Shown here: positions 11,821 through 63,087 of the stretch, piece after piece
How positions within the stretch are numbered: the first letter of the stretch is position 1
How the letters are laid out: each line of letters opens with the position of its first letter
Assembly (NCBI GenBank): GCA_020427635.1
Contig: JAGQOH010000009.1
Span: forward strand, 1 to 64,000
Direction of reading: 5' to 3'
Length of the DNA: 64,000 nucleotides
Source of the DNA: Phycisphaerales bacterium
GTDB taxonomy: Bacteria > Planctomycetota > Phycisphaerae > Phycisphaerales > UBA1924
Notes under the pieces: generated by a model
Databases searched by the model: none
The model's input: the letters and a program-made list of their open reading frames with translations, nothing else
What the model was told of the DNA's origin: nothing
Made by a program: the position numbers and the translations under genes

Positions 11821-11902
11821 GTGTGCCGTGGTTGCCTTGGGCAACCACGCGTGTCTGCAACCAAGTTTCAAGACATGGTCACCCAAGGTGACCATGGCAC
11901 AC
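11821..11902. repeat. bipartite palindromic element, copy A
   Basis: Two perfect hairpins stand 25 bases apart: a 9-bp stem with a TTG loop (11828-11848) and a 10-bp stem with a CAA loop (11874-11896). The outer ends (11821-11832 and 11891-11902) are also inverted repeats of each other, 12 bp with one G-U pair, so the whole unit can fold as one long stem or as two separate hairpins. The element fills the gap between two convergent genes. A second copy in opposite orientation is at 25403-25483. Confidence 0.85.
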
Positions 11903-11911
11903 GAGCGAAGC

Positions 11912-14328: not shown

Positions 14329-15464
14329 CAGTTCCCCTCCAACAGTGCATTGCCGGCGCCCTCGACATACACATCAGGCCCCAGCGGGCTCAGGTTCTTC
14401 TCGCGGTTCACATACACGTCGCTGTAGAGTTCTGAGAGATCGGGCTCCGGGCTCTCTTCGGCGTACTCCACCGCCGCGCGCACCTGCGCCTTCACGTCCT
14501 TCTGCATGTCCTTGTACTGCTCGTCCGTCAGGCTCTCGCGCTCGTTGAGCAGATAGTCACTCAACGTCACAATCGGGTCGCGCTCCTGATACGTCAGCAC
14601 TTCATCCTTCTCGCGGTACTTCTGCGGGTCGCTCATCGAGTGGCCCTGATAGCGGTAGGTCTTCAGGTTCACGAAGCCCGGGCGCTGCTCATCACGCAGC
14701 ACGTCCGCGAACGGCTTGAAGTTGTCATACACATCCATCATGTCCATGCCGTCGAACTCGAGGTACTCGATGCCATACGCCGCTGCCTTGCGCCCCAGAT
14801 CCTTCGCCATCGTCGTGCCACGATGAATTGCAGTGCCCATCGAGTAACCGTTGTTCTCGACGATGTAGATCACGGGAATGCTGAGCAGCCCGGCGAGGTT
14901 CATCGCCTCGTGCAGCGCACCCTGGTTCAGTGCGCCATCGCCCAGATAGCACAGGCACACCTTTTTCTTGGCCTTGCCGCCATCGAGACCTTTCTTGAGC
15001 ACTTCCCACTCATAGCGCGCGGCGAACGCGAGCCCTGCGCCGACGGGCGTCTGCGCACTCACGATGCCGTGCCCGCCAAACAGCCAGTTGGGCTTGTCGA
15101 ACATGTGCATCGACCCGCCCTTGCCCTTGGCGCAGCCGGTGACCTTGCCAAACATCTCAGCCATGCAGAACTTCGGATCCATGCCGCGTGCGAGTGCGTG
15201 CCCGTGATCGCGATAGGCCGTGATCACCGGATCATCTGGCTCGACACTGCGGATCGTGCCGAGCGCGCAGGCTTCCTGCCCGTTGTAGACATGGCAGAAG
15301 CCGCCGATCTTCGCCTGCTGATACGCCGCCATCGTGCGCAGCTCGAATTCGCGCATGAGCAGCAAGTCGCGCAGCCACCCATGCAGCGTCTTGTCTGGCA
15401 GCTTTGCGGCCAAGCCCTTGGCCCGATTGTTCCCAGCCCTGGTCTGCGTCGTCGTTGTCGGCAT
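14328..15464 (-). CDS. pdhA: pyruvate dehydrogenase E1 component, alpha subunit
   Basis: The product is 378 residues of thiamine diphosphate-binding alpha chain. The ThDP motif begins GDGALNQGALHEAMNLA and ends in ENNGYSMGT; the substrate and phosphorylation-loop region reads YRYQGHSMSDPQKYR. The GGHGIVSAQTPVGAGLA segment is typical of the pyruvate-specific family. The ATG at 15464 is preferred because GGGGAG lies four bases upstream; the frame runs on to 15521 without conserved sequence. It is the first gene of pdhA-pdhB-pdhC, 159 bases after the upstream Cys/Met enzyme gene, so the operon promoter probably lies in that gap. Confidence 0.95.
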   Translation of the reverse strand: MPTTTTQTRAGNNRAKGLAAKLPDKTLHGWLRDLLLMREFELRTMAAYQQAKIGGFCHVYNGQEACALGTIRSVEPDDPVITAYRDHGHALARGMDPKFCMAEMFGKVTGCAKGKGGSMHMFDKPNWLFGGHGIVSAQTPVGAGLAFAARYEWEVLKKGLDGGKAKKKVCLCYLGDGALNQGALHEAMNLAGLLSIPVIYIVENNGYSMGTAIHRGTTMAKDLGRKAAAYGIEYLEFDGMDMMDVYDNFKPFADVLRDEQRPGFVNLKTYRYQGHSMSDPQKYREKDEVLTYQERDPIVTLSDYLLNERESLTDEQYKDMQKDVKAQVRAAVEYAEESPEPDLSELYSDVYVNREKNLSPLGPDVYVEGAGNALLEGN

Positions 15465-15623
15465 GCGGTCTCCCCGGCCCGTCTGCGATGCAAGCGCTCC
15501 GGTCCCTGTATCGGCGCGCACGATAACCCTCTGTCGGCTCGATATCCCGATTCTAGCCGAATCCCGCCACCCCGAGCAGGGGGCTTGGCCGCATCACCAG
15601 GGCCACCGCCGCGACGTACGGCC

Positions 15624-16847
15624 CTACGGCAGTCCCACCGCGTTGATCGCCCGCTCGAGCTGGCGCCACCGCTGCTCGAGGCTGCCCGTGTACCCCACGG
15701 AGATGCGCACGAGCCCGGGTGAGAGCCCTGCGGACTGTCGCGCCTCCTCTGACATCTCGCTCGACGTCGAACTCGCCGAGCACGACATCAAGGTGTCGAA
15801 GTACCCAAGGCTTACCGCCATGAACCCGAAACGCTCTGTGTTCTGCAAGTGCTCCATGAACTGGTTCGCGCGCTCCGTCGACTTCAGGTCCAACGCAAAA
15901 ACGCCGCCAAATCCATAGTCCCGGTGCGCCAGGCGCGCCAAGAGCGCATGATCCGGATGACTCTCAAGCCCCGGATACACAACCTTGTGCCCCATGGCCT
16001 CGATGCGCTGCGCAAAGGCCAGTGCCCGGCGGCTATGCTCGGCCATCCGCAATCCTAAGTGTGGCAAGCGTAAGCTGATGCTGAACGCCACCTTCGGATC
16101 CATGGTGGGCCCCAGCAGCATGAGCGACCCCAGGTGCAAGTCCATCAAGCTCGTGATGAACTCCGTGCTTCCACAGATGATCCCTGCAATGATGTCCGAC
16201 GCGCCGTTCACGAACTTCGTGGCGCTATAGACCACCACGTCGGCGCCGAGCTGGATCGGCGAGACCACCAGCGGCGTAAACGTGTTGTCGACGACCAGCT
16301 TCGCCCCGTGCCGATGCGCAAGCTCCGCAAGTTTCGGAATGTCCGCCACGCGCAACGTCGGGTTGCTGAGCGTCTCGACATACAGCACCTTGGTCTTCGC
16401 CGTGAACGCCTGATCAACCTGCGCCAGATCTCGAGCGTCAACAAATGTCGTTCGAATCCCCGCCTTTGCGGGCAGGTAGTCATTGAGCAGCGCGTAGGTC
16501 CCGCCGTACAGCGTGTCCCCCGCGACGACATGCTCGCCTGTGTTGCACAACTGCATGACGGTCGCAGCGATCGCGCCCATGCCACTGGCCGCGCAATAGC
16601 CTGCCTCCGCCCCCTCGAGCGCCGCCATCTGGCGACCAAGCACATACACCGTGGGATTGAAGTGCCGCCCGTAGAGGTAGCACCCGCCCGTGTCGGGCCC
16701 GCGCCGCCCTTGGAAAATCTCGGGCATCGTGCCGGCGTGCATGACAGTAAACGTCGTGCTTGCCTCAATGGACATATTGACGCCGCCATGCTCACCAAAC
16801 TCGTGGCGCACGTCGGCAAACGCCTCAAGCGGATCGAACTCGGGCAT
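15624..16847 (-). CDS. Cys/Met metabolism PLP-dependent enzyme (methionine gamma-lyase/cystathionine gamma-synthase type)
   Basis: The product is 407 residues of the trans-sulfuration PLP family. Signatures are YGRHFNPTV, the SGMGAIAA segment, VVAGDTLYGGTYALL, ETLSNPTLRVADI, VVDNTFTPLV and the PLP lysine K211 in YSATKFVNGASDIIAG. The cysteine-containing SLGYFDTLMSCSASSTS replaces the SLG…ESLIQHPASMTH pattern of many relatives, so substrate specificity cannot be read off. Candidates are methionine or homocysteine gamma-lyase and cystathionine gamma-synthase/lyase. The start at 16847 has AAGGAG nine bases upstream; a longer frame to 16931 runs into the hairpin downstream of the next gene and is rejected. 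Confidence 0.85.
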   Translation of the reverse strand: MPEFDPLEAFADVRHEFGEHGGVNMSIEASTTFTVMHAGTMPEIFQGRRGPDTGGCYLYGRHFNPTVYVLGRQMAALEGAEAGYCAASGMGAIAATVMQLCNTGEHVVAGDTLYGGTYALLNDYLPAKAGIRTTFVDARDLAQVDQAFTAKTKVLYVETLSNPTLRVADIPKLAELAHRHGAKLVVDNTFTPLVVSPIQLGADVVVYSATKFVNGASDIIAGIICGSTEFITSLMDLHLGSLMLLGPTMDPKVAFSISLRLPHLGLRMAEHSRRALAFAQRIEAMGHKVVYPGLESHPDHALLARLAHRDYGFGGVFALDLKSTERANQFMEHLQNTERFGFMAVSLGYFDTLMSCSASSTSSEMSEEARQSAGLSPGLVRISVGYTGSLEQRWRQLERAINAVGLP

Positions 16848-16972: not shown

Positions 16973-18493
16973 TCAGCAAACGTTCCCGAAGTTGAACAGC
17001 ACCAGGTTCAGGTCGCCAAGGTCGACCATTCCATTGCCATCCACATCGCCATTCGTGCCCGGCGTCACCGTATTGCCAAAGTTGAACAGCACGGTGTTGA
17101 CGTCCGCGAGATCGACCGCGTTGTTGCCGTCGGCATCACCCGGGCAGACCACGCTGGCCACATTGCCAATGATCTGCACCATCCGATTGGGCTCATCAAT
17201 GTCATCGCTGACAATAGAAACCGTCTCGTCGATCGGGCCCACGATGTTGGTCATCACGCCGACCACATGCACATTGCCACTGCCCGCGGCCGCAACGTAG
17301 TTGCCAAACGTGACCGACAGTCCGCTCGAACCAAAGAGGGTGTAGTTCAGGTCGGCAATGCCATTCGCCGACCACAGCGCCACATCGCCCGCGTTGTCGA
17401 CCGGCACCATCGCGTCGACCGACGAACCCTGCGCCACAGTGCCGATGTCGATCACCAGCGGGGCGTCGACCTTTGGAGGCACGCGCATGTCCATGAACAC
17501 CGGCAGGTGCCCTGCGCCCACGCAGACATTGATCAGCGCCTGCGCAACCGCCGGCCCGACCATCGAATTGCCCGTGGTCGTCAACGTCGTGTTGAAGCTT
17601 GTCCCATCGTTGCCCCAGGCTCGATACGAGTGATTCGGATCGTTCCAGGTCGTTGTGCTGTAGGGGATTGCTGCGTCACCGATGTAATCCATCCCGAGAC
17701 CGTCCACGAGCGAAAAACTCGCCAGCAACTGGTCGTGACGGTCGTCCATGCCGCCCGCGCCGATCGGATCCTGTGTATGCACGAACCTAAAAGTGCCCGT
17801 GTTGTTCCAGTTTCCAGGCGTGAAGATGGGATCAAACAGCCGCCCGTCGTTGTTCGCCATGCTCGATGTCATGTGAACGTATGCCGACTGCGACGAGCTT
17901 TGAATGTTGAAGTCGCCCCCAAGAATGAAATTCCAGCCAGCCGGCAGAGACTCAGCGTTGGCACGAATGTTCTGCGCCTCGATCAACCGCCGGTCCTGAT
18001 CCGAACTTGCTGAGCCCGCCTTCATGTGGCTCGCGTAGAGCGCGATGACCGCTTCCGGGGCCGCGTAGTCCTTGATCCGCACGTCATAGCGATTGACATC
18101 GCGCGGCGGAAGCGGCGGACCGGCGCCGATCTGAATCACGGTCATCCCGAGAAAGTCCACCTTGCTCGTGCGATAGAACATCGCGTTGTCGGTGTCGTTG
18201 CCATTGTTGAAGGGTGCCGCCGCCCAATCCCCTGGGCTGCCCGGCGCTGTGTTGAGAATGCTCAAGAAGCTGTTCACTGCCGCCTGGCTCAGGAACTCTT
18301 CACAAAGAAAAATGTCCGGCGCCATCGCCTCGCCATTGAAAGACTCGTAGATCGACGTCTGCAGGTCAGCAGCCCGCCCGCCGTTGTAGTTCGAGATGTT
18401 CCAGTTCGCCACCCGCAGCTGGGCCATCGCGTTCGGCGCCATCGTTCCCGCGCAGACCGCAACCACCAACCCCAACACACCACTTCGCTTCAT
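16973..18493 (-). CDS. secreted endonuclease/exonuclease/phosphatase-family protein with dockerin-like C-terminus
   Basis: The product is 506 residues with a Sec signal peptide (MKRSGVLGLVVAVCAGTM to AMAQ). The N-terminal ~270 residues resemble the EEP fold: RVANWNISNYNG near the start, CEEFLS, YASHMKAGS, FILGGDFNI and a late DDRHDQLLASFSL, which correspond to the metal- and phosphate-binding loops of DNase I-like enzymes. The order is normal, but the final SDH motif is replaced by DRHDQ, so activity is uncertain. A middle beta-rich region follows. The C-terminus has two EF-hand repeats (CPGDADGNNAVDLADV and GDVDGNGMVDLGDL). The ATG at 18493 has AGAGGG nine bases upstream. It is divergent from the 18758 gene across 264 bases that must hold both promoters. 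Confidence 0.75.
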   Translation of the reverse strand: MKRSGVLGLVVAVCAGTMAPNAMAQLRVANWNISNYNGGRAADLQTSIYESFNGEAMAPDIFLCEEFLSQAAVNSFLSILNTAPGSPGDWAAAPFNNGNDTDNAMFYRTSKVDFLGMTVIQIGAGPPLPPRDVNRYDVRIKDYAAPEAVIALYASHMKAGSASSDQDRRLIEAQNIRANAESLPAGWNFILGGDFNIQSSSQSAYVHMTSSMANNDGRLFDPIFTPGNWNNTGTFRFVHTQDPIGAGGMDDRHDQLLASFSLVDGLGMDYIGDAAIPYSTTTWNDPNHSYRAWGNDGTSFNTTLTTTGNSMVGPAVAQALINVCVGAGHLPVFMDMRVPPKVDAPLVIDIGTVAQGSSVDAMVPVDNAGDVALWSANGIADLNYTLFGSSGLSVTFGNYVAAAGSGNVHVVGVMTNIVGPIDETVSIVSDDIDEPNRMVQIIGNVASVVCPGDADGNNAVDLADVNTVLFNFGNTVTPGTNGDVDGNGMVDLGDLNLVLFNFGNVC

Positions 18494-52050: not shown

Positions 52051-52430
52051 AGCGTTCATGGCCGGCTGCTTGGAATGGGGGTGCGCTGCCTTATGAGCAA
52101 GCGACCCCCGGCGCGAGAGAACGAGGTTGAGTCGAATCCGTCGTGCGCCAGGGCGATCGGGTCTCGCCGGTGCGAGTGCTGCGTCCTGCTCATGCCCCAA
52201 GGTCGACGCGTGCGTGCCCAACGCCGCACATGGCTGGGCCCCGCGCCACCCGCTCACCGCAGTGCATGGCCAGGTCTCATCGAGCCTCTCCTTCGATTGC
52301 GCACCCATCACCGGCGAACCCGAGGCGCGAGACGAGGAGTCCTCTCGCGCAACAACCCCGGTCAAGATGTGTCGGTTGCGACCGCTTGGATACGTCGACC
52401 ATCCAATTCCGTCCGTATGATGCGACCGAC
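52051..52430. other. 380-base gap between pgpA and the ECF sigma gene
   Basis: I see no convincing gene here. A GGGGGT…ACCCCC stem around a 21-base loop at 52077-52109 may end the pgsA-pgpA transcript but lacks a T-run. The rest should hold the promoter of the sigma/CHAT operon. TATGAT at 52416-52421 resembles a -10 box, but no matching -35 is spaced correctly upstream. Confidence 0.45.
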
Positions 52431-53072
52431 GTGTGCCATGCCTCCGCAATCCCGCCTTCGCGCACAGACCCGCAACTGATCGCGGCCTGTCTTGAGAAAG
52501 ACCAGGACGCGTGGCGGGAGCTCATCGATCGCTATAGCCCGCTTGTGCTCTCGATCCCACGCCGCAATGGCTTGGGGCCCGAGGCAGCCGAAGAAGTGGC
52601 CCAGGAAACCTTCGCGCAACTGGTCAAGAGCCTGCCCGCCTTGCGCAATCAGGAGGGTTTGCCCAAGTGGCTCATGACGACCGCTTTTCGTTACACGTTG
52701 CGAGCAAAACGGCGCAGAGCCGCGACCACGGGGCTCGATCGAGCCCCGATGGCGGCGTTGGAACCAGAGGACGTCACCCGCTGGGAGCAGCGCCAGCGCA
52801 TCAACGAGGCGTTGCGCTCCATCGGGGATCGGTGCCGAGACCTGCTCATTGCCCTGTACACGGCGCCCGATCGCCCGAGTTATGACCTCATCGCCAAGCA
52901 GTTCGATATGCCACGGGGCAGTATCGGGCCCACCCGATCTCGGTGCCTCAAGAAGCTTTTGGACGCTTTGCACCACCTGCCCACAGACACTTCGACAGAA
53001 AACAAGTCATCAACGCTATCTGGAGGCGACGCCGCGACACATCTTTCAAGGGACACCGATGCAAGGACATAG
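52431..53072 (+). CDS. ECF-type sigma-70 family sigma factor
   Basis: The product is 213 residues. Region 2 is seen as RDPQLIAACL-like start, DAWRELIDRYSPLVLSI, EEVAQETFAQLVKSL and the -10 recognition helix KWLMTTAFRYTLRAKRR. Region 4 is seen as LRSIGDRCRDLLIALY and the helix-turn-helix YDLIAKQFDMPRGSIGPTRS. There is no region 1 or 3, as in ECF sigmas. The start is uncertain: GTG 52431 is the last plausible codon before region 2 and has no ribosome-binding site; the frame is open upstream to 52143. The 3' end overlaps the next gene by 14 bases, so they are coupled. It probably directs its own operon. Confidence 0.88.
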   Translation: MCHASAIPPSRTDPQLIAACLEKDQDAWRELIDRYSPLVLSIPRRNGLGPEAAEEVAQETFAQLVKSLPALRNQEGLPKWLMTTAFRYTLRAKRRRAATTGLDRAPMAALEPEDVTRWEQRQRINEALRSIGDRCRDLLIALYTAPDRPSYDLIAKQFDMPRGSIGPTRSRCLKKLLDALHHLPTDTSTENKSSTLSGGDAATHLSRDTDART

Positions 53073-53673
53073 CCCACAACAGTTCGATCAGCTTGTCGCC
53101 TGGGCTGCCGGCGAGTGCTCGCTTCAGGAGCATTTGGCTGCAGAACGTGCAATTGCGAATGATCCGGCGCTCAAGGCACTGGCAGACCAACTCACGGCAA
53201 TCTTCGATGGCCTGCAAGCGCATGAACAACCCACCGCGGCGCTCAAGGCAAGGCTGGCACGCCTGCTCGATGAGTCCGGCGCGCCCTCAGTGCTGCAGCG
53301 CGCAAAAGACTGGATCGCAAACGCTGAGCGCTGCGTCGCCACCATGATCCTGGGCCCGCACACGGCACTCGCTGGATTCCGCTCGGCGCCCACGTCGCAG
53401 CAATACGCCTTCACCAGCGCACTGGGTCGCCTAGACCTTCTTGTCGCGCCGGGCGCAGGCGCGGAGCGCGCCGCCCTGAAGGGACAGTTCGCGCCGACGT
53501 CTCAGCCCGCAAAGGCGGCCCTGCTGATGACACCAGCCCGCGAACCGCTCGCCCATACGACCGTCGACGAGCGCGGGCGCTTTGAACTTAACGCCGACCC
53601 GGGTGAGTATGCCCTCGTGCTCGATGTAGATGGTGCTGCACTAGACTGTACGATCGTCGTGCCGCAAGGGTAA
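53059..53673 (+). CDS. hypothetical protein, putative regulator of the adjacent sigma factor
   Basis: The product is 204 residues, with AAGGGA upstream of the ATG. The N-terminal ~75 residues are helical (FDQLVAWAAGECSLQEHLAA then AERAIANDPALKALADQL) and resemble the layout of anti-sigma N-terminal domains, though the HxxxCxxC zinc motif is absent. A linker and a C-terminal beta-rich domain follow (LLMTPAREPLAHTTVDERG, then GEYALVLDVDG), like carboxypeptidase regulatory-like or similar Ig-type modules. No transmembrane helix or signal peptide is seen. It lies between the sigma factor and the TPR-CHAT protein and overlaps the sigma gene by 14 bases. The anti-sigma reading is inference from position and layout. 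Confidence 0.6.
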   Translation: MQGHSPQQFDQLVAWAAGECSLQEHLAAERAIANDPALKALADQLTAIFDGLQAHEQPTAALKARLARLLDESGAPSVLQRAKDWIANAERCVATMILGPHTALAGFRSAPTSQQYAFTSALGRLDLLVAPGAGAERAALKGQFAPTSQPAKAALLMTPAREPLAHTTVDERGRFELNADPGEYALVLDVDGAALDCTIVVPQG

Positions 53674-53695
53674 CGCGGCTCCGCGACGACCATGC

Positions 53696-56458
53696 ATGAC
53701 TGACCTGCAATCCGACAACCTCGCTGATGTATTGCGCAGCGCCACCGATGAGCAGTGGCTAGACGTTTGTGAGCGCGCACGCCAGCTCGCCATCGCCGAC
53801 CTTGGCCAGGCGTTGCAAGTCACGGAACGCCTCGAGCAACTCGGACGGGAACATGCCAACCCCTGCGTGCGCGCCCTGGTCTTGCGCACGCGCGCCCATG
53901 CCCTCGCCTATGCCAATCGGCTCGATGAAGCCCATCAGTTGCTTGAACTGGCCCTGCCCTGCGCCCAATCATGTGGTGACAGCGCCACCATCGGACATGT
54001 GCAAATGACGCGGTTGCACGTGCTCAACCGCCAGGGGCATTCTCAAGCCGCCGCCGAAGCCGGGCGCGATGCCGCCGATCGCTATCGCACCGCCGGTGAA
54101 CCCGTTCACGCGGCCCGCGCGGCGGTGAACTTGGGCGTCGTGCATCGCACGCTTGGCAATCCGGCAGAAGCCATCGAACTCTTCAACCAGGCGCGCTCCG
54201 TACTGGGTAATGACGCGCGCATTGATGCGCAGATCCTCAGCAACCTCGCGGAGGCGTATCTCGAAACCAATCGCTTTGCGGAGGCCGAAAACGCTTTCGC
54301 ACAGGCCAGGGACCGCTTCGCCGAGCTCAACATGGCCCGCGCCACTGCGATCGTGGAGGGCAATCTTGCCGACCTGTTGGGGCGACAAGGTCGATTCTCA
54401 GAAGCGTTCGAGCATTTCGAGCGCGCACGCCGGTCGATGCCACCCGACGAAGCACCGGGAGACCTGGCGCGTCTCCTCGCCGAAGAAGCCGAAGCGATGT
54501 GCCTGGCAGGTCAATGGGCCGACGCCGCCCCGCTGCTCGTGGAATCCCTTCGTCTGCTTGACCAATGGGAGCTCACCCACGAAGCCGCGCGGTCGCAGCT
54601 CACGCTCGCGATGGCCTATCACCGGTGCGGCAAGCGCGAACCCGCGGGCCAAGCACTCGTACAGGCCAGGCGCCGCATTGCGCTGCTCAACGACCAGCGC
54701 CAGCTTGCAAACCTTGAACAAGCAACGGCGGCCTTGGCAATCGCCGACGCCGACCTGCCCCGCGCCGAAGCCGCCCTGGAACGCGCGCTCAAGGCGCTTG
54801 AGGATCGTCCAAGCGAGCTCCAACGCGTCCAGGTGGCGCTCGCATGGCTGGCGATGGATCAAGGTGATCTCGAACGCGCCGACGCCCTGCTCTCGAAATT
54901 ATCGTCCGCTCCTGAAGCTGAATTCGCGCTTGCGCCCATGCAGATTGATCTCAACCATGCCCGCGGTCGCCTGGCAGCGGCGCGCGGCCAGCTGCAACAA
55001 GCCATCGACTTCCTCGAGCAAGCGGCGGATGCAATCGAGCGCATTCGCGGCTCACTGCAAGCAGAGCGCATGCGCTCCGCATTCCTGGGCGGGCACGCGC
55101 GGCTCTTTGACGACTTGCTCGGGGTGCTCCTCTCGCACAATGACGCCGCATCTGTTGCACAAGCCTTCCGCGTCTGCGAGCAGGCCCGCTCGCGCTCGCT
55201 GGTCGACGCCGTGGCAAGCCTGGGGCGCCAACCGCAAACAGAACACGACGACGCATCGGATGTAGCGCTCGTGATGGCCCATCGCTCCAAGCTCAATGCG
55301 CTCTACAGTCGAGCGCTGGACCTGCCGAAGGTTCCGCCTACGCTGGCGCGTGAGATCCATAGCGCTGAGCAGGCGCTGCATGAAGCCGAGCGCCGCTTGC
55401 AGGTGCAAGGTGGGCTTGCCACGGTGCTCGCGCCATCGGCGTCGGCCGACCAAGTGCGACGATCGCTACCGCCAGACTGTGCGCTGCTCGAATATGTCTT
55501 CCATGAAGATGTTCTGCACTGCTTTGTCTTGGACGCGCGCGGCAAACTGCACGTATGCAAATCGATCGCAGAAGGCTCAGCCGTCTGCGATGCGGTCGAC
55601 GACTGGGCGTTCCAGGCCACCCGATCAATGACCTATGACAACGCAGCCCTGCTCCAGACAGCGCCCGATGCTGAACGGACCCTTCAGCGGCTGTTCGATC
55701 TGCTTGTGCGCCCGTTGGCAAATGTGCTAGCCGACGCGTCCGCGCTGCACATCGTGCCCCACGACCTGTTGCACGCCGTGCCCTTTGCCGCGCTGCATGA
55801 TGGAACCAGCTTCCTCGTTGAGCGGCTTCGCTTGTCGCAAACACCCAGCGCGACTTTGCTCACGCAGACGCCTGCCTCGCGCATGCCCGACTTGGCGCGA
55901 GCGCGCGCCCTCGCCCTTGGTTTTGCCGACGCCGCCGCGCCCGCCATCGAGGCCGAGCTTGCCGACTTTGCCAGGATGTGCCCGCATGCCCAGGTCTCGT
56001 CGGGTGCTGAGGCGACGGTCGAGAGCCTGCTCGCAAATGCCACTGGCGCACAACTGCTGCACCTTGCCGCGCATGGTCGGTTCCTGCATGCGTCCCCCCT
56101 GGGCTCGGGCATGCGCCTGGCGGACCGGTGGCTGACAAGCCGCGACCTGCTCGATCTCCGACTCGATCACGCCCTGGTCACACTGAGCGGCTGCGATACT
56201 GGCCGCGCCGCAATCGACGCCTGCGATGAGCTGCAGGGCCTCGTGCGCACGATGTTCGCCGCCGGCGCCAGCGCTCTGCTCATGGCCCTCTGGCCCGTGC
56301 ATGACGAGATCACCCGCACCTTTATGGGCCACTTCTACAGCAGCCCGCCCGGCACGCCCGTCGACCAAGCCTGGCGCGCAGCAACACTCGTTGCAAAGGC
56401 TACATGCGAACACCCGGCAAGATGGGCGCCTTTCGCTTTGTTGACTACCCCTTCGTAA
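53696..56458 (+). CDS. TPR-CHAT caspase-like protease
   Basis: The product is 920 residues. About 480 residues of TPR-like helical repeats (for example AGEPVHAARAAVNLGVVHRT, NPAEAIELFNQARSVLG, RFAEAENAFAQARDRFAELN) lead through a longer helical linker (RIRGSLQAERMRSAFLGGHA) to a C-terminal CHAT domain from about residue 590. The caspase-type dyad is His793 in LLHLAAHGRFLHAS and Cys833 in LVTLSGCDTGRAA, both in canonical context, so proteolysis is expected. The domain ends LLMALWPVHDEITRTFMGHF. It lies 22 bases after the regulator gene and 48 before the subtilase gene. TPR-CHAT proteins cleave specific partners when the TPR part senses a signal. Confidence 0.92.
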   Translation: MTDLQSDNLADVLRSATDEQWLDVCERARQLAIADLGQALQVTERLEQLGREHANPCVRALVLRTRAHALAYANRLDEAHQLLELALPCAQSCGDSATIGHVQMTRLHVLNRQGHSQAAAEAGRDAADRYRTAGEPVHAARAAVNLGVVHRTLGNPAEAIELFNQARSVLGNDARIDAQILSNLAEAYLETNRFAEAENAFAQARDRFAELNMARATAIVEGNLADLLGRQGRFSEAFEHFERARRSMPPDEAPGDLARLLAEEAEAMCLAGQWADAAPLLVESLRLLDQWELTHEAARSQLTLAMAYHRCGKREPAGQALVQARRRIALLNDQRQLANLEQATAALAIADADLPRAEAALERALKALEDRPSELQRVQVALAWLAMDQGDLERADALLSKLSSAPEAEFALAPMQIDLNHARGRLAAARGQLQQAIDFLEQAADAIERIRGSLQAERMRSAFLGGHARLFDDLLGVLLSHNDAASVAQAFRVCEQARSRSLVDAVASLGRQPQTEHDDASDVALVMAHRSKLNALYSRALDLPKVPPTLAREIHSAEQALHEAERRLQVQGGLATVLAPSASADQVRRSLPPDCALLEYVFHEDVLHCFVLDARGKLHVCKSIAEGSAVCDAVDDWAFQATRSMTYDNAALLQTAPDAERTLQRLFDLLVRPLANVLADASALHIVPHDLLHAVPFAALHDGTSFLVERLRLSQTPSATLLTQTPASRMPDLARARALALGFADAAAPAIEAELADFARMCPHAQVSSGAEATVESLLANATGAQLLHLAAHGRFLHASPLGSGMRLADRWLTSRDLLDLRLDHALVTLSGCDTGRAAIDACDELQGLVRTMFAAGASALLMALWPVHDEITRTFMGHFYSSPPGTPVDQAWRAATLVAKATCEHPARWAPFALLTTPS

Positions 56459-56506
56459 ATCCGCTCGGCTCGTGTAGGATGCTGGCGTGCCAAGAGAGGA
56501 TTTCAT

Positions 56507-57847
56507 ATGACCCGTCGGACAACTTGCACAGGCCTTTTGTTCGCCTTGCTCGCCGCCCCCGCTTTCGCGGACGGTTTTGCGCCACACGAAGCGGTCATCC
56601 GCATCGTGCCCGGCGCATCGATCGACGACATCAACGCGGACCTTGGCACCACAGTCATTGATTCAATCCCGCGAGAGCGCACCTACCTCCTCCACGTGCC
56701 CGACGGCTTGAACGAAGAGCAGTTCGAAGAAATGCTCGAGCACGACCCGCGCATTCAGAGCGCCGAACTAAACGACGAAGCCGGTACGCCCGGCGGCCAG
56801 ACACAGAGCTTCTACCTGGGCGTCGCCCCCGCAGCCTTTGACGAACAGTACACGTGGAACACGGTCGTGCCGGGTGGCATCTCGGGCTCTTCAAACGGCG
56901 CCGGTGTCATCGTCGCGATCATCGACACGGGCATCGACGCGACTCATCCCATCTTCGCGGGCCACACCATCCTGCAGGGCGTCGACTTGCTGGACAACGA
57001 CGACCTACCCGATGACACCGCCGACGGCATCGACAACGATGATGATTCCTTCATTGATGAAATGCATGGGCACGGCACTTTCCAGTCGGCACTGATTGCA
57101 CAACTCGCGCCGGGCGCGACCTTGTTGCCCATTCGCGCGCTCGACAGCGATGGCCAGGGCAGCGCATTCACCATCGCCAAGGCGATCTACGCCGCGATTG
57201 ATGGCGGCGCAGACGTCATCAACATGAGCTTGGCGATGAGCTACCGCAACGAGATCATTGAGCACGCCATTGAGCACGCAACCCGCGATGGCATCCTGGT
57301 CGTCGCCTCGGCGGGGAATCGCGGCGGTGATCGCAAGCTCTATCCCGCGGGATTCTCCGACGTCATCGCAGTCGCGTCCACTGATGCTGACGATGTCCTG
57401 AGCTCGTTCAGTTGCTACGGATCGCACATCGACCTCTGCGCACCTGGCAGCGCGTTGGTCAGCGCGGTGCCGGCTGGCGCGTTTGGTCAGTCAGATGGCA
57501 CCAGCGGCGCCGCCGCCCTCGTCAGCGCCACCGCCGCGGTCATGAAGAGTGCAAACACCCATTTGAGTCGTTCTGCACTGAAACAACGCCTGCTGCATTC
57601 GTGTGTTGACATCTCGGCGCACAATCAGTCCATCGCACAGAAGATCGGTGCCGGAAGGCTCGACCTCACCACGTCCTTGGATACCGCCATCGGCAATGGT
57701 GACATCAACCTCGATGGCGTCACGAACTACGATGACCTGACGCTCCTGCTTTACGCATGGGGCAGCGACGACGAAGCCGCGGACGTCAATCTCGATGGGG
57801 TCGTTGGCTACACAGACCTCATGCTGCTCCTGGCGCACATTCACTAA
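56507..57847 (+). CDS. secreted subtilisin-like serine protease with degenerate dockerin-like C-terminus
   Basis: The product is 446 residues. A signal peptide (CTGLLFALLAAPAFAD) is followed by an I9-like propeptide (about 22-95) and an S8 catalytic domain with Asp140 (AIIDTGIDATHP), His189 (HGHGTFQSALIA), oxyanion Asn271 (ASAGNRGG) and Ser333 (DGTSGAAALVSA). The usual GTSMAAP is GTSGAAA here. Acidic EF-hand-like loops lie between Asp140 and His189 (DNDDLPDD, DNDDDSFIDE). The C-terminus has two short EF-hand repeats (GDINLDGVTNYDDL and DVNLDGVVGYTDL). The ATG at 56507 has GAGAGG seven bases upstream. It is last in the sigma/regulator/CHAT/subtilase set and convergent with the 46-haem cytochrome gene. 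Confidence 0.93.
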   Translation: MTRRTTCTGLLFALLAAPAFADGFAPHEAVIRIVPGASIDDINADLGTTVIDSIPRERTYLLHVPDGLNEEQFEEMLEHDPRIQSAELNDEAGTPGGQTQSFYLGVAPAAFDEQYTWNTVVPGGISGSSNGAGVIVAIIDTGIDATHPIFAGHTILQGVDLLDNDDLPDDTADGIDNDDDSFIDEMHGHGTFQSALIAQLAPGATLLPIRALDSDGQGSAFTIAKAIYAAIDGGADVINMSLAMSYRNEIIEHAIEHATRDGILVVASAGNRGGDRKLYPAGFSDVIAVASTDADDVLSSFSCYGSHIDLCAPGSALVSAVPAGAFGQSDGTSGAAALVSATAAVMKSANTHLSRSALKQRLLHSCVDISAHNQSIAQKIGAGRLDLTTSLDTAIGNGDINLDGVTNYDDLTLLLYAWGSDDEAADVNLDGVVGYTDLMLLLAHIH

Positions 57848-57874: not shown

Positions 57875-60800
57875 TCAGTGCCTCCCGTTCGGGTGGCAGC
57901 TGTAGCACGCCTGGCTCTGCCACACATAGCCGTTCACGTCACTGTGCTTATCGTCCATGCGACTCTGCCGGTGCTCGTGGCAATCAATACAACTGAACGC
58001 GGAGCTGCCTGGCACCGTGTGGCAATCCGAACAGTTCAGGTTCCGGTGCGCGCCGCTGTTGATTGGGAACTGGTGATTGAAGGTCGCCCCGCTCCACGTG
58101 CTCGTTGAGTGGTGGCACAACTCGCAGTCAGTCGGGAACCCGAAGTTGCCGTGGTCCGGATCCGTCGTCGCGTTGTAGTCCGCGATGTGGCACGACGCAC
58201 AGTCACTCGGCAGCCCGTGATACACATTGCTGCCATGGCACGCATTGCAGTTGTGCCCCGCGTGTCCGTTCGTAAGCGGGAACGCGGAGGTGTGCGTGTA
58301 GTTCGCGGTGTCCCACCGTGTCGTGTTATGGCACGCCTGACACACCGTGTTGAACCCAGCCGAAGCATGCCGCGGATCGGTCGTCGCCGTGTAATCATCA
58401 TTGTGACACGCATTGCACTGCGTCGACAGACCGGTGTACACCCCTCCCACGTGGCAATCAGTGCAATCGAGCCCCGCGTGCCCATTGGTCAGCGGGAATG
58501 ACGAAGGATGGCTAAATGTTGCGCCCTGCCACGTGTTGTTCGAGTGGTGACAGATTTCGCAATCGGTACTGAACCCGTTCGTCTGGTGGTTCGGATTCGT
58601 CGTGCCCTGATAGTCCGCCAAGTGGCACGTCACACAGTCACTCGGCAACCCGTGATACACATTGCTGCCGTGACACGCGTTGCAGTTGTGCCCCGCATGT
58701 CCGCCCGTGAGCGGGAATGCGCTCGTGTGCGTGTATGCCGCAGTATCCCATCGTGTCGTGTTGTGACACGCTTGGCACACGGTGTTGAATCCAGCAGAGG
58801 CATGCCGCGGATCCGTCGTCGCCGTGTAATCATCATTGTGACACGCATTGCACTGCGTCGACAGCCCGGTATACACACCGCCCACGTGGCAATCAAAGCA
58901 ATCCAGCCCACTGTGCCCATTGGTCAGCGGGAAGCTCGCCGGGTGCGAGAAGTTCGCGCCGTTCCAAGTGTTCACAGACATGTGGCAAAGCGCACAGTCC
59001 GTACCGAAACCACTTGTCGTGTGATTCGGATTCGTCGTGCCCTGGTAATCCGCCAAGTGGCAATCCACGCAGTCACTTGGCAACCCGTGATACACGTTGG
59101 TGCCGTGGCACGTGTTGCAATTGTGCCCAGCATGCCTGCCGACGAGCGGGAAGGCAGAGGTGTGCGTGTACGCCGCGCTCCCCCACGTCGAGGTGTTGTG
59201 ACACGCCTGACATGTCGTGTTGAAGCCGGCGGATGAGTGCCGCGGATCCGTCGTCGCCGTGTAGTCATCGTTGTGGCATGCGTTGCACTGCGTCGACAGG
59301 CCGGTGTACACACCGCCCACGTGGCAGTCAAAGCAATCCAGCCCACCGTGACCGTTGGTCAGCGGGAACGATGACGGGTGATTGAATGTGGCGCCTGTCC
59401 ACCGTGTTGTGTTGTGACATTGATCACAATCAGTATTGAACCCGCTCGTCGAGTGGTTCGGGTTCGTAGTGCCTTGATAGTCCGCCAAGTGACAGTTCAC
59501 GCAATCACTCGACAGCCCCGTGTACACACCACCCAAGTGGCAATCGCTGCAGTCCAGCCCGCCGTGGCCGCCCGTCAACGGAAAGGCCGACGTGTGGTTG
59601 AAATTCACACCCGTCCAACCGCTGGTCGTGTGGCAGTCATCGCAGGTCGTACTGAAACCCGCCGCCCCGTGGTTCGGGTTGGTGGTCGCGTTGTAGTCTC
59701 CTTGGTGACATGCGGAGCACGAAGTCGAGAGGCCCGTGTACACGCCGCCTGTGTGGCAATCTTGGCAATCAAGACCACTGTGGCCCGCCGTTAACGGGAA
59801 GGTCGACGGGTGATCGAAGTTGGCGCCGCGCCAACGCTGCGTCGTGTGACATACCTCGCAGTCGGTATTGAACCCGCTGGTTGCGTGGTTCGGATTCGTC
59901 GTGCCCTGATAGTCCGCCAGGTGACACGTCACGCACTCACTCGACAGGCCCGTATACACGCCGCCGGTATGGCAGTCCTGGCAGTCCAAGCCGGCATGCC
60001 CCTGCGACAGCGGGAACGCCTGCGTGTGGTTGAAGTCCACACCTGTCCAACCATTGATCGTGTGGCACTCCTCGCAATTCGTGCTGAACCCAGCCGCATT
60101 GTGATTCGGGTTCGTCGTGCCACTGAAGTCGTCACTGTGACACGAAGCGCACGCCGTCGACAACCCGCTATACCCTGAGGGCGCAAAGCCTGACAAGGTC
60201 ACGGGCCCAAGGCCGCCGCCCACCGTGTGGCAGTCTGCGCACGCAAGCCCAGCGTGCCCGCCGCTCAAGGGGAAGCTCGCCGGGTGATTGAACTGGGCCC
60301 CCTCCCACCGCTGAATCGTGTGGCAGAGGTCGCAGTCCGTGCTGAATCCGCTCGCGGTGTGATTCGGACTGTTCGTCGCCTGGTAATCCGGCAAGTGACA
60401 CGTGACACAGTCACTCGACAGCCCGGTATACACACCGCCGGTGTGGCAATCGAAGCAGTCCAGCCCGTGGTGCCCGCCGTTGAGCGGGAAGGCCGCGGTG
60501 TGGACGAAGTTCGCACCCGTCCAGCCAGTGGTGTTGTGGCATTGCTCGCAGTCAGTCGGGAAACCTGCTGCAGCGTGATTCGGACTATTCGTGCTCTGGA
60601 AGTCGCTCAGGTGGCACGCCACGCAATCTGTCGACAAGCCACCAAAGCCATTCCCAACGTGGCAATCGTCGCAGCGCAACCCACCGTGCGCCGCGGTGAG
60701 CGGGAACGATGATGGGTGCGTGAACGAAATCGCGCCCTCCCAGGCCAGCGCCGTGTGACAGTCCTGGCAGTTCGTGCCGAATCCAACGGAATCATGGTCC

Positions 60801-61381
60801 GGATCCGTCGTGCGCACATACGCATCCAAGTGGCACGACTGGCACGTCGTATCCAAGGGCAGAAACACGCCCGACTCCGCCCCCTCGTGGCACATGTAGC
60901 ACTCAGCGCCCGCGTGTGCGCCAATCAATGGGAATCGCGTGCGGTTGTGCGCTGCGATTGCGTCATTTGGACGCCACGTATCCTCCGTGTGGCATCGATC
61001 ACACGATGGCCCAAGGTGTCCCAAGTGAACATCCACGTGGCAGCCCGCGCACCCCTTGGCCGCAAACTGCGTCACGGGCCCACGGTCGTTGTGGCACAGC
61101 AAACACTGCGCACTCTGGTGCGAGCCGGTCAACGGCACACCAGTTTCCGCCTCGTGATCAAACACAAAGTCAGGACGCAACGTATTCCAGTCCGTGCCCA
61201 TGTGGCACAGCGTGCAATCCGCCGGGAAGGTGTCGTGCGGCACCACCGGGCCAAGACTCTCATCCCAGCCCTGGCGCAAGTGAATGCGACTGCAGGACGC
61301 CCAAATCGCAAGCAAGGCGATCAGGGCGCAGGTGCGTGCGCGACGGGCGGCTCTGGCGTTTGATGCGTCAGTGTGTTTCAT
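57875..61381 (-). CDS. giant multihaem c-type cytochrome, 46 CxxCH motifs
   Basis: The product is 1168 residues with 46 CxxCH motifs by my count, about one haem per 25 residues. The N-terminus has a signal sequence (RTCALIALLAIWASCS) whose cysteine could be a non-canonical lipidation site. Four haem motifs near the N-terminus are followed by 13 similar three-haem units of about 67-73 residues and three C-terminal motifs. Each unit follows GLxCxDCH…GVYxGLSxxCxxCH…NPNH…GFxTxCxxCH…W…F.H..…FPLTxGH, and the histidines outside CxxCH could be distal haem ligands. Three 435-bp copies are nearly identical. It starts five bases after the beta-barrel gene and probably sits at the cell surface as a molecular wire. 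Confidence 0.95.
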   Translation of the reverse strand: MKHTDASNARAARRARTCALIALLAIWASCSRIHLRQGWDESLGPVVPHDTFPADCTLCHMGTDWNTLRPDFVFDHEAETGVPLTGSHQSAQCLLCHNDRGPVTQFAAKGCAGCHVDVHLGHLGPSCDRCHTEDTWRPNDAIAAHNRTRFPLIGAHAGAECYMCHEGAESGVFLPLDTTCQSCHLDAYVRTTDPDHDSVGFGTNCQDCHTALAWEGAISFTHPSSFPLTAAHGGLRCDDCHVGNGFGGLSTDCVACHLSDFQSTNSPNHAAAGFPTDCEQCHNTTGWTGANFVHTAAFPLNGGHHGLDCFDCHTGGVYTGLSSDCVTCHLPDYQATNSPNHTASGFSTDCDLCHTIQRWEGAQFNHPASFPLSGGHAGLACADCHTVGGGLGPVTLSGFAPSGYSGLSTACASCHSDDFSGTTNPNHNAAGFSTNCEECHTINGWTGVDFNHTQAFPLSQGHAGLDCQDCHTGGVYTGLSSECVTCHLADYQGTTNPNHATSGFNTDCEVCHTTQRWRGANFDHPSTFPLTAGHSGLDCQDCHTGGVYTGLSTSCSACHQGDYNATTNPNHGAAGFSTTCDDCHTTSGWTGVNFNHTSAFPLTGGHGGLDCSDCHLGGVYTGLSSDCVNCHLADYQGTTNPNHSTSGFNTDCDQCHNTTRWTGATFNHPSSFPLTNGHGGLDCFDCHVGGVYTGLSTQCNACHNDDYTATTDPRHSSAGFNTTCQACHNTSTWGSAAYTHTSAFPLVGRHAGHNCNTCHGTNVYHGLPSDCVDCHLADYQGTTNPNHTTSGFGTDCALCHMSVNTWNGANFSHPASFPLTNGHSGLDCFDCHVGGVYTGLSTQCNACHNDDYTATTDPRHASAGFNTVCQACHNTTRWDTAAYTHTSAFPLTGGHAGHNCNACHGSNVYHGLPSDCVTCHLADYQGTTNPNHQTNGFSTDCEICHHSNNTWQGATFSHPSSFPLTNGHAGLDCTDCHVGGVYTGLSTQCNACHNDDYTATTDPRHASAGFNTVCQACHNTTRWDTANYTHTSAFPLTNGHAGHNCNACHGSNVYHGLPSDCASCHIADYNATTDPDHGNFGFPTDCELCHHSTSTWSGATFNHQFPINSGAHRNLNCSDCHTVPGSSAFSCIDCHEHRQSRMDDKHSDVNGYVWQSQACYSCHPNGRH
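58045..59349 (-). repeat. three tandem 435-bp repeats within the 46-haem cytochrome gene
   Basis: A 145-codon unit carrying six CxxCH motifs is repeated three times in register (anchor positions 58369, 58804 and 59239, each 435 bases apart). Similarity at the DNA level is high, including third positions, so duplication is recent. Unit edges are approximate. Each unit is itself two diverged three-haem repeats. Confidence 0.9.
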
Positions 61382-61386
61382 GGTGT

Positions 61387-63087
61387 TCAGAACCGATGTG
61401 AGAGGTACAAACCAATCGTGTACACGTCGTCTTCTTCACCGAAGTAGTAATCGCCGGTCACATCGACGTACCACTTACCCAGATACCAACTCAGCCCGCC
61501 ACGCACCAGATTGCGCACGTGGGTGCTCTTGCCACTGACGGCCGTGGCGCCGTCGTAGTTGAAAATTTCGTAGCCGAAGTACCCATTAATGTCATTGATC
61601 TGGTGGCGCAGCTCGGCTCGAAGCCCCGTGCCTGAGTTGAAGTTGCCGTCCACGAAGAACACCGCGGCGCGCAGCGCAGGAAGGTCTTCACCCAACGCTG
61701 ACCAATCTGCGGTCAAATCGCCGCTTGAGCCGCTGTTCGTGTCGTCTTGCCACAGGTCATAGTTCGCCGTCACGCGCAAGATCTTGTTGAGCTTCGCCCA
61801 TGCCGAGAAGCTGCCGCGATCGACCTGCCCATTTTCGATGATCTCAACGGGCAGCAGGCGATAGTCCGAGCGCTCCAGCTCAGGCCACCGGAAGCGTGAG
61901 TACCCCACCGAGCCGCCGATGTTCCTCGTGGGCGTATAGCGCACCTGCGCCCAGAACTCCGTAAGTTCGACACCACTGCCCTTGATCTCATCATCGCTCG
62001 TGTAGATGTCCGCGCGGAACGACCCGAACAACCACCACTTGTCGCTGGGACGCCAGTTCATGCGCCCAAGCACCAAGTCTCGGTCTTCCTTGCCCTGGTG
62101 CCACGTCTTTTGATAGCCCAGCGTGGCAGACCCAAGCCCCGGCTTCTCTGTCTCATAGTTCACGAACACGTGGGCGCCGACATCGCCATCCCAATCGCGA
62201 TCGCGGTTGTTGCGCGGAATGATCGCCAGGCCCGTGCCGATCGTCCAGCCCTTGTCGAACTGCAGCGCTGCTTCAGCGCCATCGAGCAGCCCCAACTCCG
62301 GCAAGTAAATCGAATAGAACCGCCCCACTTCCGCGCGATACGACGCAAAGTCCTCGCCACCCCAGGCATACGACAACCGCTCCAATCGCCAGTCGCGCTC
62401 CGTCTCGCTGCCTCGCCCGCTGATCTCATTGCGATGCGCCGCCGCCTCGGCGTCAAAGCGCAAGCGGCCACCGTCGTGCAACAAGTTGCGCACCGTTAAC
62501 GTCGTGCCGAGTCGCCCGGTCATAAACGAACTGTCTCGACCAGACCCCGCATCATGGGTGTAGTGAGAGTTGAAGTAGATGCGCCCCGCGACCTTGATGG
62601 CGCGCTCCGCTGGCTTCTGACGATGCACCGGCGCAAGCAGTGGCTCGTCAGGCGAAATGTCGCTCAGGTCCGTCTCCCAAGGCGGATGCTCTGGCACGAC
62701 CGGCGTTTGCGCCGGCTGCTCCGCATCCGCGGGCTCCGGACTTTCCTCAGGCGGTGGCGCAAGCGGCACACGAATCTCGCCCGGCGTGCCAATCAACGGC
62801 ACTTCCACACCCACAGGCAGGTCCGCACGCGCACTGCTCGCCGAGACAATGTTGATCACCGTGACGATCGGATCGCTGCCGTCCGGAAACAGCCAAAGGT
62901 CCATGCCCGCATGGACGCCATCGAGCCTACCTTTATCGATAAACACACTCTGACCAGACGTCGACGTCACCACCACGCGCAACGGCTGATGCTCAGTATC
63001 AGCGCTCGCATCGTCGGCAAATGCCTGCGTCACCGCGAGCACCATGCTCAGCATGCACACGACCATCGGAAGCACAAACTTCTTCAT
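61387..63087 (-). CDS. outer-membrane beta-barrel protein of a porin-cytochrome type cluster
   Basis: The product is 566 residues. A signal peptide (LPMVVCMLSMVLAVTQAFAD) is followed by a small domain (about 35-105; VFIDKGRLDGVHAGMDLWLF) and a proline- and glutamate-rich linker. From about residue 175 come alternating aromatic/hydrophobic strands to the end, closing with YTIGLYLSHRF, the C-terminal phenylalanine of outer-membrane barrels. I estimate 20 or more strands. It is the middle gene of cytochrome/barrel/cytochrome; its ATG overlaps the upstream cytochrome stop by four bases, and the 46-haem gene follows five bases later. This order suggests the barrel sheathes a cytochrome through the outer membrane. 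Confidence 0.85.
   Translation of the reverse strand: MKKFVLPMVVCMLSMVLAVTQAFADDASADTEHQPLRVVVTSTSGQSVFIDKGRLDGVHAGMDLWLFPDGSDPIVTVINIVSASSARADLPVGVEVPLIGTPGEIRVPLAPPPEESPEPADAEQPAQTPVVPEHPPWETDLSDISPDEPLLAPVHRQKPAERAIKVAGRIYFNSHYTHDAGSGRDSSFMTGRLGTTLTVRNLLHDGGRLRFDAEAAAHRNEISGRGSETERDWRLERLSYAWGGEDFASYRAEVGRFYSIYLPELGLLDGAEAALQFDKGWTIGTGLAIIPRNNRDRDWDGDVGAHVFVNYETEKPGLGSATLGYQKTWHQGKEDRDLVLGRMNWRPSDKWWLFGSFRADIYTSDDEIKGSGVELTEFWAQVRYTPTRNIGGSVGYSRFRWPELERSDYRLLPVEIIENGQVDRGSFSAWAKLNKILRVTANYDLWQDDTNSGSSGDLTADWSALGEDLPALRAAVFFVDGNFNSGTGLRAELRHQINDINGYFGYEIFNYDGATAVSGKSTHVRNLVRGGLSWYLGKWYVDVTGDYYFGEEDDVYTIGLYLSHRF

Follow-up and report, generated by a model that had tools for sequence, protein, structure and literature searches.

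A conserved module of sigma factor, anti-sigma factor, TPR-CHAT protease and subtilase in a Phycisphaerales bacterium, with a predicted cut site at an invariant arginine

The window analysed here is the whole stretch of 64,000 nucleotides from contig JAGQOH010000009.1 of a Phycisphaerales bacterium (assembly GCA_020427635.1). Between 52431 and 57847 it carries four open reading frames (ORFs) on the plus strand, which in order encode an extracytoplasmic function (ECF) sigma factor, a small protein that we call REG, a protease with tetratricopeptide repeats (TPR) and a CHAT domain, and a subtilase (Table 1). The sigma and REG ORFs overlap by 14 bases, and gaps of 22 and 48 bases lie between REG and CHAT and between CHAT and the subtilase, in agreement with an earlier note on this DNA. 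The operon stands isolated, because the preceding gene ends 380 bases upstream and the following gene is convergent. We consider here what the four proteins are, how widely they stay together and how they may work as a regulatory switch.

Table 1. Positions of the operon features in the window and the basis of each assignment
Feature	Position	Strand	Basis and remarks
Putative sigma-dependent promoter	52368..52393	+	TGTG (-35 region), 16 bases, GGATAC (-10 region); ends 37-38 bases before the GTG
ECF sigma factor	52431..53072	+	GTG start inferred; frame open from 52143; TIGR02937 E 8.2e-19, Sigma70_r2 E 4.3e-8 (Pfam); alignment of relatives
REG, 204-aa soluble anti-sigma factor	53059..53673	+	Family-level anti-sigma matches; AlphaFold2 model
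REG residues 6-72, anti-sigma domain without zinc ligands	53074..53274	+	Helices 6-16, 22-34, 36-54, 60-72 (AlphaFold2); RsiW profile match over 14-78
REG Arg108 codon, predicted P1 of CHAT cut (Arg108/Ser109)	53380..53382	+	R in 63/63; linker unstructured, block 101-110 with mean predicted local distance difference test (pLDDT) 55
REG residues 114-201, beta-sandwich, carboxypeptidase-regulatory-like (transthyretin-like)	53398..53661	+	pLDDT ~95; Z 7-8.7 to beta-sandwich domains
TPR-CHAT protease, 920 aa	53696..56458	+	CHAT PF12770 E 1.2e-44; model mean pLDDT 92.4
CHAT caspase-like domain	55676..56440	+	PF12770; His793 codon 56072-56074, Cys833 codon 56192-56194; proposed S1 acids Glu754, Asp870
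Subtilase, 446 aa	56507..57847	+	Peptidase_S8 E 2.8e-42; Fervidolysin_NPro-like; sub-threshold Dockerin_1; N-terminal signal-like stretch

The third protein (P0003) matched the CHAT family with 153 bits against a cut-off of 24, and this domain together with the His/Cys dyad makes it a CHAT peptidase, with predicted activity. The dyad had been noted as intact, and we found His793 and Cys833 to be invariant in the module CHATs of relatives (13/13) and in a wider set (44/44). The window subtilase reached 145 bits for the S8 family (cut-off 21.8), and its triad, also described before as intact, consists of Asp140, His189 and Ser333, with D in 50, H in 51 and S in 49 of 51 aligned sequences. It is composed of a signal-like N-terminus, a fervidolysin-type prodomain and two dockerin-like calcium-binding repeats. 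Most of the subtilases have an export signal, as a hydrophobic 12-mer near the N-terminus was present in 40 of 50 members.

Profile and model comparisons identify the REG family as soluble class I anti-sigma domain (ASDI) anti-sigma factors, composed of helices, a linker and a beta-sandwich. Among 63 aligned REGs, the model NF052375 'anti-sigma factor' (NCBIfam) matched 33 (best E 1.8e-10), PRK13920 13 and zf-HC2 8, and the carboxypeptidase regulatory-like domain CarboxypepD_reg was found in 12. The family profile gave 26 matches in PDB, including RsiW (E 3.4e-5), ChrR (1.1e-4), DdvA (8rlz, 6.4e-4) and RskA (0.018), these four over residues 3-110 or less, and its positions 5-90 matched many other anti-sigma proteins in 294 planctomycete genomes. 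In the AlphaFold2 model of the window REG (P0002), the four helices listed in Table 1 are followed by an extra helix (76-89), a low-confidence linker without secondary structure and then the beta-sandwich. A fold search with this model returned common beta-sandwich matches for residues 117-204 only, the helical part being uninformative. By hydropathy the REGs are soluble, a 19-residue window above 1.6 occurring in 3/63. At the family level, a role of REG as inhibitor of the sigma factor is therefore well supported by these comparisons.

A different view has been printed for a similar neighbourhood. The review PMC8999054, citing Casas-Pastor 2021 and Huang 2015, lists a 'carboxypeptidase', a subtilase and a CHAT protein as the conserved genetic neighbours of the ECF54 sigma factors, and describes the group as having no anti-sigma factor; its section 3.3 proposes from this conserved neighbourhood that the proteases keep the sigma factor off by degrading it. 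Carboxypeptidase-like, subtilase and CHAT neighbours are also present at the window locus and in its relatives. We nevertheless consider sigma degradation quite improbable for this module, because the small protein has an anti-sigma domain and a regulatory-like beta domain that is named after carboxypeptidases and is not a peptidase, and because the subtilase, which carries an export signal in most members, should not meet the sigma factor. REG was rejected as a peptidase, since its matches were to the regulatory-like beta domain only. We thus read the 'carboxypeptidase-like' protein as an anti-sigma factor for which a cut site can be predicted. The window locus was not filed as an ECF54 member, the REG family having an anti-sigma domain; what is shared is the neighbourhood. 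In our literature searches this neighbourhood was named only in that review, and only within their scope do we take the anti-sigma reading to be unpublished. The anti-sigma identity of REG, the cut site and the logic of the module are what we add to the printed neighbourhood.

Judged from gene neighbourhoods, the sigma factor, REG, TPR-CHAT protease and subtilase form a conserved unit. Its own genome holds a second complete paralogous operon (G000:C80; sigma ORF from 11224, REG 11888-12478, TPR-CHAT 12475-15291, subtilase ORF 15255-16691), and directly after this one the end of a third CHAT domain, cut by the contig edge, lies on the minus strand (18245-18478, L004). We searched 101 genomes (this one and 100 relatives) for REG at E<=0.01; 15 genomes were positive and the loci of the 14 others were retrieved. 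The order sigma-REG-CHAT-subtilase was present in all 13 loci with a convincing REG match (11 from relatives and the two from the own genome). In one of the 13, L024, the subtilase is turned round, and three further weak REG matches (L033-L035) were without the four-gene set. Because there is a second complete operon in the same genome and the order recurs widely, the module is more than a chance arrangement.

The same association was seen from the sigma side. The module sigma factors have in common a region 4.2 hallmark, GSIGP[TV]RxRC (GSIGPTRxRC in the window), and a contig scan for it gave at least 596 matches, at least 586 of them confirmed. The best 80 were made into loci, which are not independent, since 8 are near-identical Lentzea/Nocardia loci. 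Counting was done on the 63 loci with at least 4.5 kb downstream, and 17 shorter ones were left out. A REG-profile match was present in 59, CHAT in 56, a subtilase in 55 and all three in 54, although one of the 59 matches (L067) is a FecR-type membrane protein. The loci come from Planctomycetota, Chloroflexota, Actinomycetota (Rubrobacter, Lentzea), Acidobacteriota and, by record title, Fimbriimonadaceae and Burkholderiales metagenome-assembled genomes. Hence the gene order, whose conservation the earlier note named as a check, does recur in other genomes, the regulator is retained beside the sigma factor, and sigma and CHAT occur together.

The incomplete loci differ in kind. Four sigma loci have neither REG nor CHAT (L085, L086, L089, L108), the TPR-CHAT genes of L091 and L102 are broken or cut, and L039 and L070 are without a full subtilase. 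All 7 searched genomes of module-less sigma loci have CHAT genes elsewhere, up to 15 each, so that this is weakly informative. Two loci, L047 and L067, carry a FecR-type membrane anti-sigma factor instead of REG, and this sigma subgroup is thus wired to two kinds of anti-sigma factor. In these two Chloroflexota loci the FecR-type gene (9871-11202 in L047, 9551-11161 in L067) takes the place of both REG and CHAT.

Starting from CHAT, 31 matches were found in 61 genomes of the family. Twenty lie in the module (in G019 only CHAT and S8 at a contig edge), and the other 11 are different, mostly larger CHAT proteins or lie at a contig edge. Starting from REG, CHAT adjoins 19 of the 20 near-full-length matches that were retrieved from the search of 294 planctomycete genomes. 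In an actinobacterial class the sigma hallmark occurred in 19 of 79 genomes, and 20 retrieved loci contained CHAT in 14 cases and a subtilase in 15. Three of these loci (L187, L194, L198) have sigma and REG without a local CHAT, and in all three genomes the single CHAT adjoins an S8 gene elsewhere. That the unit stays complete even when it is split argues for a joint function of its parts. At the split CHAT locus of one actinobacterium (L215, 9573-12249), two subtilase genes stand in a row beside CHAT.

Because CHAT and S8 adjoin even when sigma and REG are elsewhere (3/3), it could be supposed that CHAT controls an exported protein, be it the secreted subtilase or another one, and that the sigma factor merely sets the expression of the protease pair. 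An export signal was noticed in the subtilase and none in the CHAT sequence, and the invariant arginine of REG, described below, would be left unexplained. We therefore regard this possibility as very improbable.

Gene order and divergence vary within the unit. The subtilase is first and not last (S8-sigma-REG-CHAT) in many planctomycete and some other loci (L163-L166, L170, L171, L084, L115). In two planctomycete loci the module sigma gene stands in head-to-head orientation to another, more distant sigma gene (L054 8303-8872, L059 8323-8892). Distance correlations over 55 loci were 0.50 for sigma-REG, 0.23 for sigma-CHAT, 0.55 for sigma-S8, 0.16 for REG-CHAT, 0.34 for REG-S8 and 0.26 for CHAT-S8; these are modest and owe part of their size to related loci, and we place little weight on them. 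No permutation among 2000 reached the observed values, except for REG-CHAT (7/2000).

Besides Met1, the only invariant residue of REG is Arg108, present in all 63 aligned sequences, and it lies in the linker between the anti-sigma helices and the beta domain. The residue after it is Ser or Gly in 50/63 and one of S, G, A or T in 58/63, and a Gly stands two residues before it in 55/63. In an additional set of 26 REGs, the aligned column holds Arg in 20, and by reading L167, L169, L170 and L179 have it one to few columns off (24/26 in all). The sigma-adjacent REGs of actinobacteria had the Arg in 14/14 found; in that sample no REG was detected in four loci, L201 is a fragment and the L197 match is only to an unrelated anti-sigma protein. 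L181 encodes a REG-like protein that lacks both the linker Arg and a CHAT neighbour. An invariant residue in a floppy linker looks as a protease site would look.

It is also conceivable that REG is released when a ligand binds to the beta domain or when its conformation changes, while CHAT acts on another protein, for instance as a cell-death effector, that the sigma factor merely induces together with the subtilase. The beta domain resembles in fold carbohydrate- or ligand-binding beta-sandwiches, and CHAT proteases elsewhere act in cell death or defence. A SAVED-CHAT protein is named in PMC11229360, and the soluble anti-sigma factors ChrR and RshA let their sigma factors go by conformational change, as PMC8999054 describes. 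However, ligand release does not explain why the best conserved residue of REG should be an Arg that lies in neither domain but in the disordered linker, and the same is true for the keeping of both REG and CHAT when the operon is split. We therefore consider it unlikely.

The TPR-CHAT protein has features that would fit cleavage after Arg. Human separase with SCC1 (9hn0) was the best structural match of the P0003 model in Foldseek (E 1.4e-18), followed by Csx29 (8eey, E 1.8e-15) and DdvA. Separase cleaves after Arg. A modelling study of separase (PMC4626109) places the P1-Arg between two acids: Glu917, which follows strand 1, and Asp1082, where helix 4 begins. In the P0003 model, Glu754 is among the first residues of helix 750-761, which comes after strand 738-742, and helix 870-881 opens with Asp870; a HMMER alignment pairs Asp870 with an Asp of separase 5fc2. 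We propose that Glu754 and Asp870 sit at sequence places equivalent to Glu917 and Asp1082 of separase. The first is E in 44/44 and the second D in 42/44 of the CHATs; both are kept in 19/19 actinobacterial CHATs, and further planctomycete CHATs have E in 29/29 and D in 27/29 (2 gaps). Separase (peptidase C50) is the best fold match of P0003 and resembles it in the Arg at P1, predicted for P0003, and in the proposed acidic S1 pair at equivalent sequence places, but it is a eukaryotic cohesin protease whose substrate is unrelated to REG.

Transcription of the operon and of the subtilase is probably driven by the sigma factor itself, because an upstream element is present at the sigma gene and a detached subtilase has a copy of its own. 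The element TGTG/GGATAC occurs upstream of sigma with the same internal spacing in this genome and in its sister genome G001, and ends about 38 bases before the sigma start codon in G000 and 29 in G001. Of 81 loci, 14 had a related element, [AG]GAG-N16..18-GATAC, in the region before the sigma gene, against 0.42 expected from shuffles (maximum 2 in 200 shuffles), a control that is not independent because the motif was found in the same sequences. From the start of [AG]GAG to GATAC there are 21 bases in 11 loci and 22 bases in 3; 11 near-duplicate loci and L048 had been removed beforehand from the set of 81. In L024 the same element lies 125 bases upstream of the detached, reversed subtilase ORF. 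Genome scans for TGTG-N16..18-GGATAC yielded 7 matches in G000, where the control had 6, and 21 in G001, where it had 5, and sigma is the only gene with the element just upstream in both, other pre-gene matches (L146, L158) being unshared. In 40 planctomycete-type loci a related element was also seen near unrelated ORFs, hence single matches mean little. A search for paired hexamers over all phyla gave nothing above shuffles.

Taken as a whole, it is fairly probable that the module works as a CRISPR-free (clustered regularly interspaced short palindromic repeats) cytoplasmic switch by regulated proteolysis, in which CHAT cuts REG after Arg108 and the freed sigma factor drives its own operon. 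At rest, the REG helices would hold the sigma factor. The TPR superhelix would sense a signal and let the CHAT domain act, and CHAT would cleave REG after Arg108 and before Ser109, so that the anti-sigma helices and the beta domain come apart. The helical stub would then release the sigma factor or be degraded. Free sigma may transcribe its operon from the promoter in Table 1, giving a positive feedback, and induction would raise the secreted subtilase as the effector. The logic would be that of type III-E Csx29/Csx30/CASP-sigma, except that the Arg specificity would be separase-like and a TPR sensor would do the work of the guide RNA. We infer the holding of sigma, the cut, the release, the feedback and the subtilase as output; CHAT as the protease that cuts REG is suggested by the invariant linker Arg, the separase-like S1 acid pair and the gene linkage. 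The interpretation in the earlier note, that CHAT cuts the regulator to free the sigma factor, is supported in part by these results: REG as an anti-sigma factor stands at the family level, whereas the cut is a prediction from these three lines.

Several observations weigh against this proposal. The window REG alone matched no family, anti-sigma or other, at E<=0.01, and the actinobacterial REGs keep only a shortened helical part, which may be the reason why an anti-sigma factor is denied to the group in PMC8999054. One module REG, L172, lacks the linker Arg, its protein being cut by the contig edge, and the linker Arg could instead serve folding or docking. Two Lentzea CHATs have Thr at the position of Asp870, though their REG keeps the Arg. 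Neither is the acid pair specific to the module, because 7 non-module CHATs have E in 5 (2 gaps) and D in 6; this speaks for Arg specificity of CHAT generally, beyond the module. As to the promoter, the dependence of the shuffle control counts here too, and the element is absent from 67 of the 81 upstream regions, so that a shared promoter motif, for which the earlier note proposed a search, was recovered in the 14 loci and not in the rest. A conserved wider regulon was not seen in the element scan of G000 and G001.

This kind of system is already known, and the window module is a CRISPR-free variant of it, in which the parts are separate and soluble and a single Arg is the predicted site. In type III-E systems (DiCASP, Craspase), the TPR-CHAT protease Csx29 cuts Csx30, an inhibitor that binds an ECF sigma factor (CASP-sigma), and so frees the sigma factor (PMC10028731); a TPR-CHAT protease, a sigma inhibitor and an ECF sigma factor are found in both, the inhibitor of the window module by prediction. 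REG has an invariant Arg, whereas Csx30 is cut at 427-429 and is reported in the same paper to have no essential cut-site residue. P0003 reached 30 bits with the Csx29 model NF041237, over the CHAT part only and against a cut-off of 300, and three Csx29-type proteins have Ser, Ser and Pro at the position of Asp870 in the HMMER alignment. The RAMP/Cas7-11 family (PF03787) had no match in the own genome, which is 92% complete, and membership in type III CRISPR was rejected for this reason; the 'CRISPR-free version' of the earlier note agrees with this. A crude scan of the retrieved loci for arrays flagged only L052, with a 48-base tandem repeat that looks coding. REG was not accepted as a relative of Csx30, as none of the 26 matches that the REG profile gave in PDB is a Csx30 chain, though weak similarity could be missed in this way.

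Other systems share parts of this logic. The DdvA/DdvS pair of Myxococcus is close to it, since DdvA joins an anti-sigma domain (8rlz) and a TPR/CHAT-like C-terminal part in one chain; PDB 8rot/8rw5 are titled 'transmembrane anti-sigma factor DdvA' and the chain is named CHAT domain-containing protein. By its domain make-up, DdvA can be described as a fused form of the anti-sigma/CHAT pair. However, it is one membrane polypeptide, and the window module has separate soluble REG and CHAT genes and is not of the DdvA type. We know of no subtilase that accompanies DdvA/DdvS. The RseA/DegS and RsiW systems have the class I anti-sigma domain in common with REG, RsiW being the best anti-sigma match of the REG profile, but proteins of this type are membrane proteins cut by site-1 and site-2 proteases and REG is soluble. 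In CalpL/CalpT/CalpS a protease also cuts an anti-sigma factor and releases the sigma factor (PMC11229360), but this protease is of the Lon type with a SAVED domain, is triggered by cyclic nucleotide and is linked to CRISPR.

The region next to the operon is of a different nature. On the minus strand, 57875-61381 encodes a multihaem cytochrome c of 1168 residues with 46 CxxCH motifs and tandem repeats of about 435 and 216 bases. Next to it, a 566-residue protein (61387-63087) may be an outer-membrane barrel. Together the two may conduct electrons through the cell envelope.

CHAT proteases are common in bacteria and, to our knowledge, few have a known substrate. The locus offers a candidate substrate in the adjacent gene, with a single residue to test. 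With somewhat less than even confidence, we suggest that this kind of signalling module is pan-bacterial, arose before type III-E CRISPR and is more widespread than it. In this view, a TPR-CHAT protease of separase-like type and Arg specificity would sever a cytosolic anti-sigma factor at its single invariant Arg and free an ECF sigma factor for its own operon and a secreted subtilase, and Csx29/Csx30/CASP-sigma would be a specialised, guide-RNA-driven outgrowth of such a circuit. If the proposed switch is true, it would replace the printed view that sigma factors of the ECF54 type are without an anti-sigma factor, it would be a CRISPR-independent relative of the Csx29/Csx30/sigma circuit, and it would provide a further bacterial example, that of a separase-like enzyme serving as a transcription switch.

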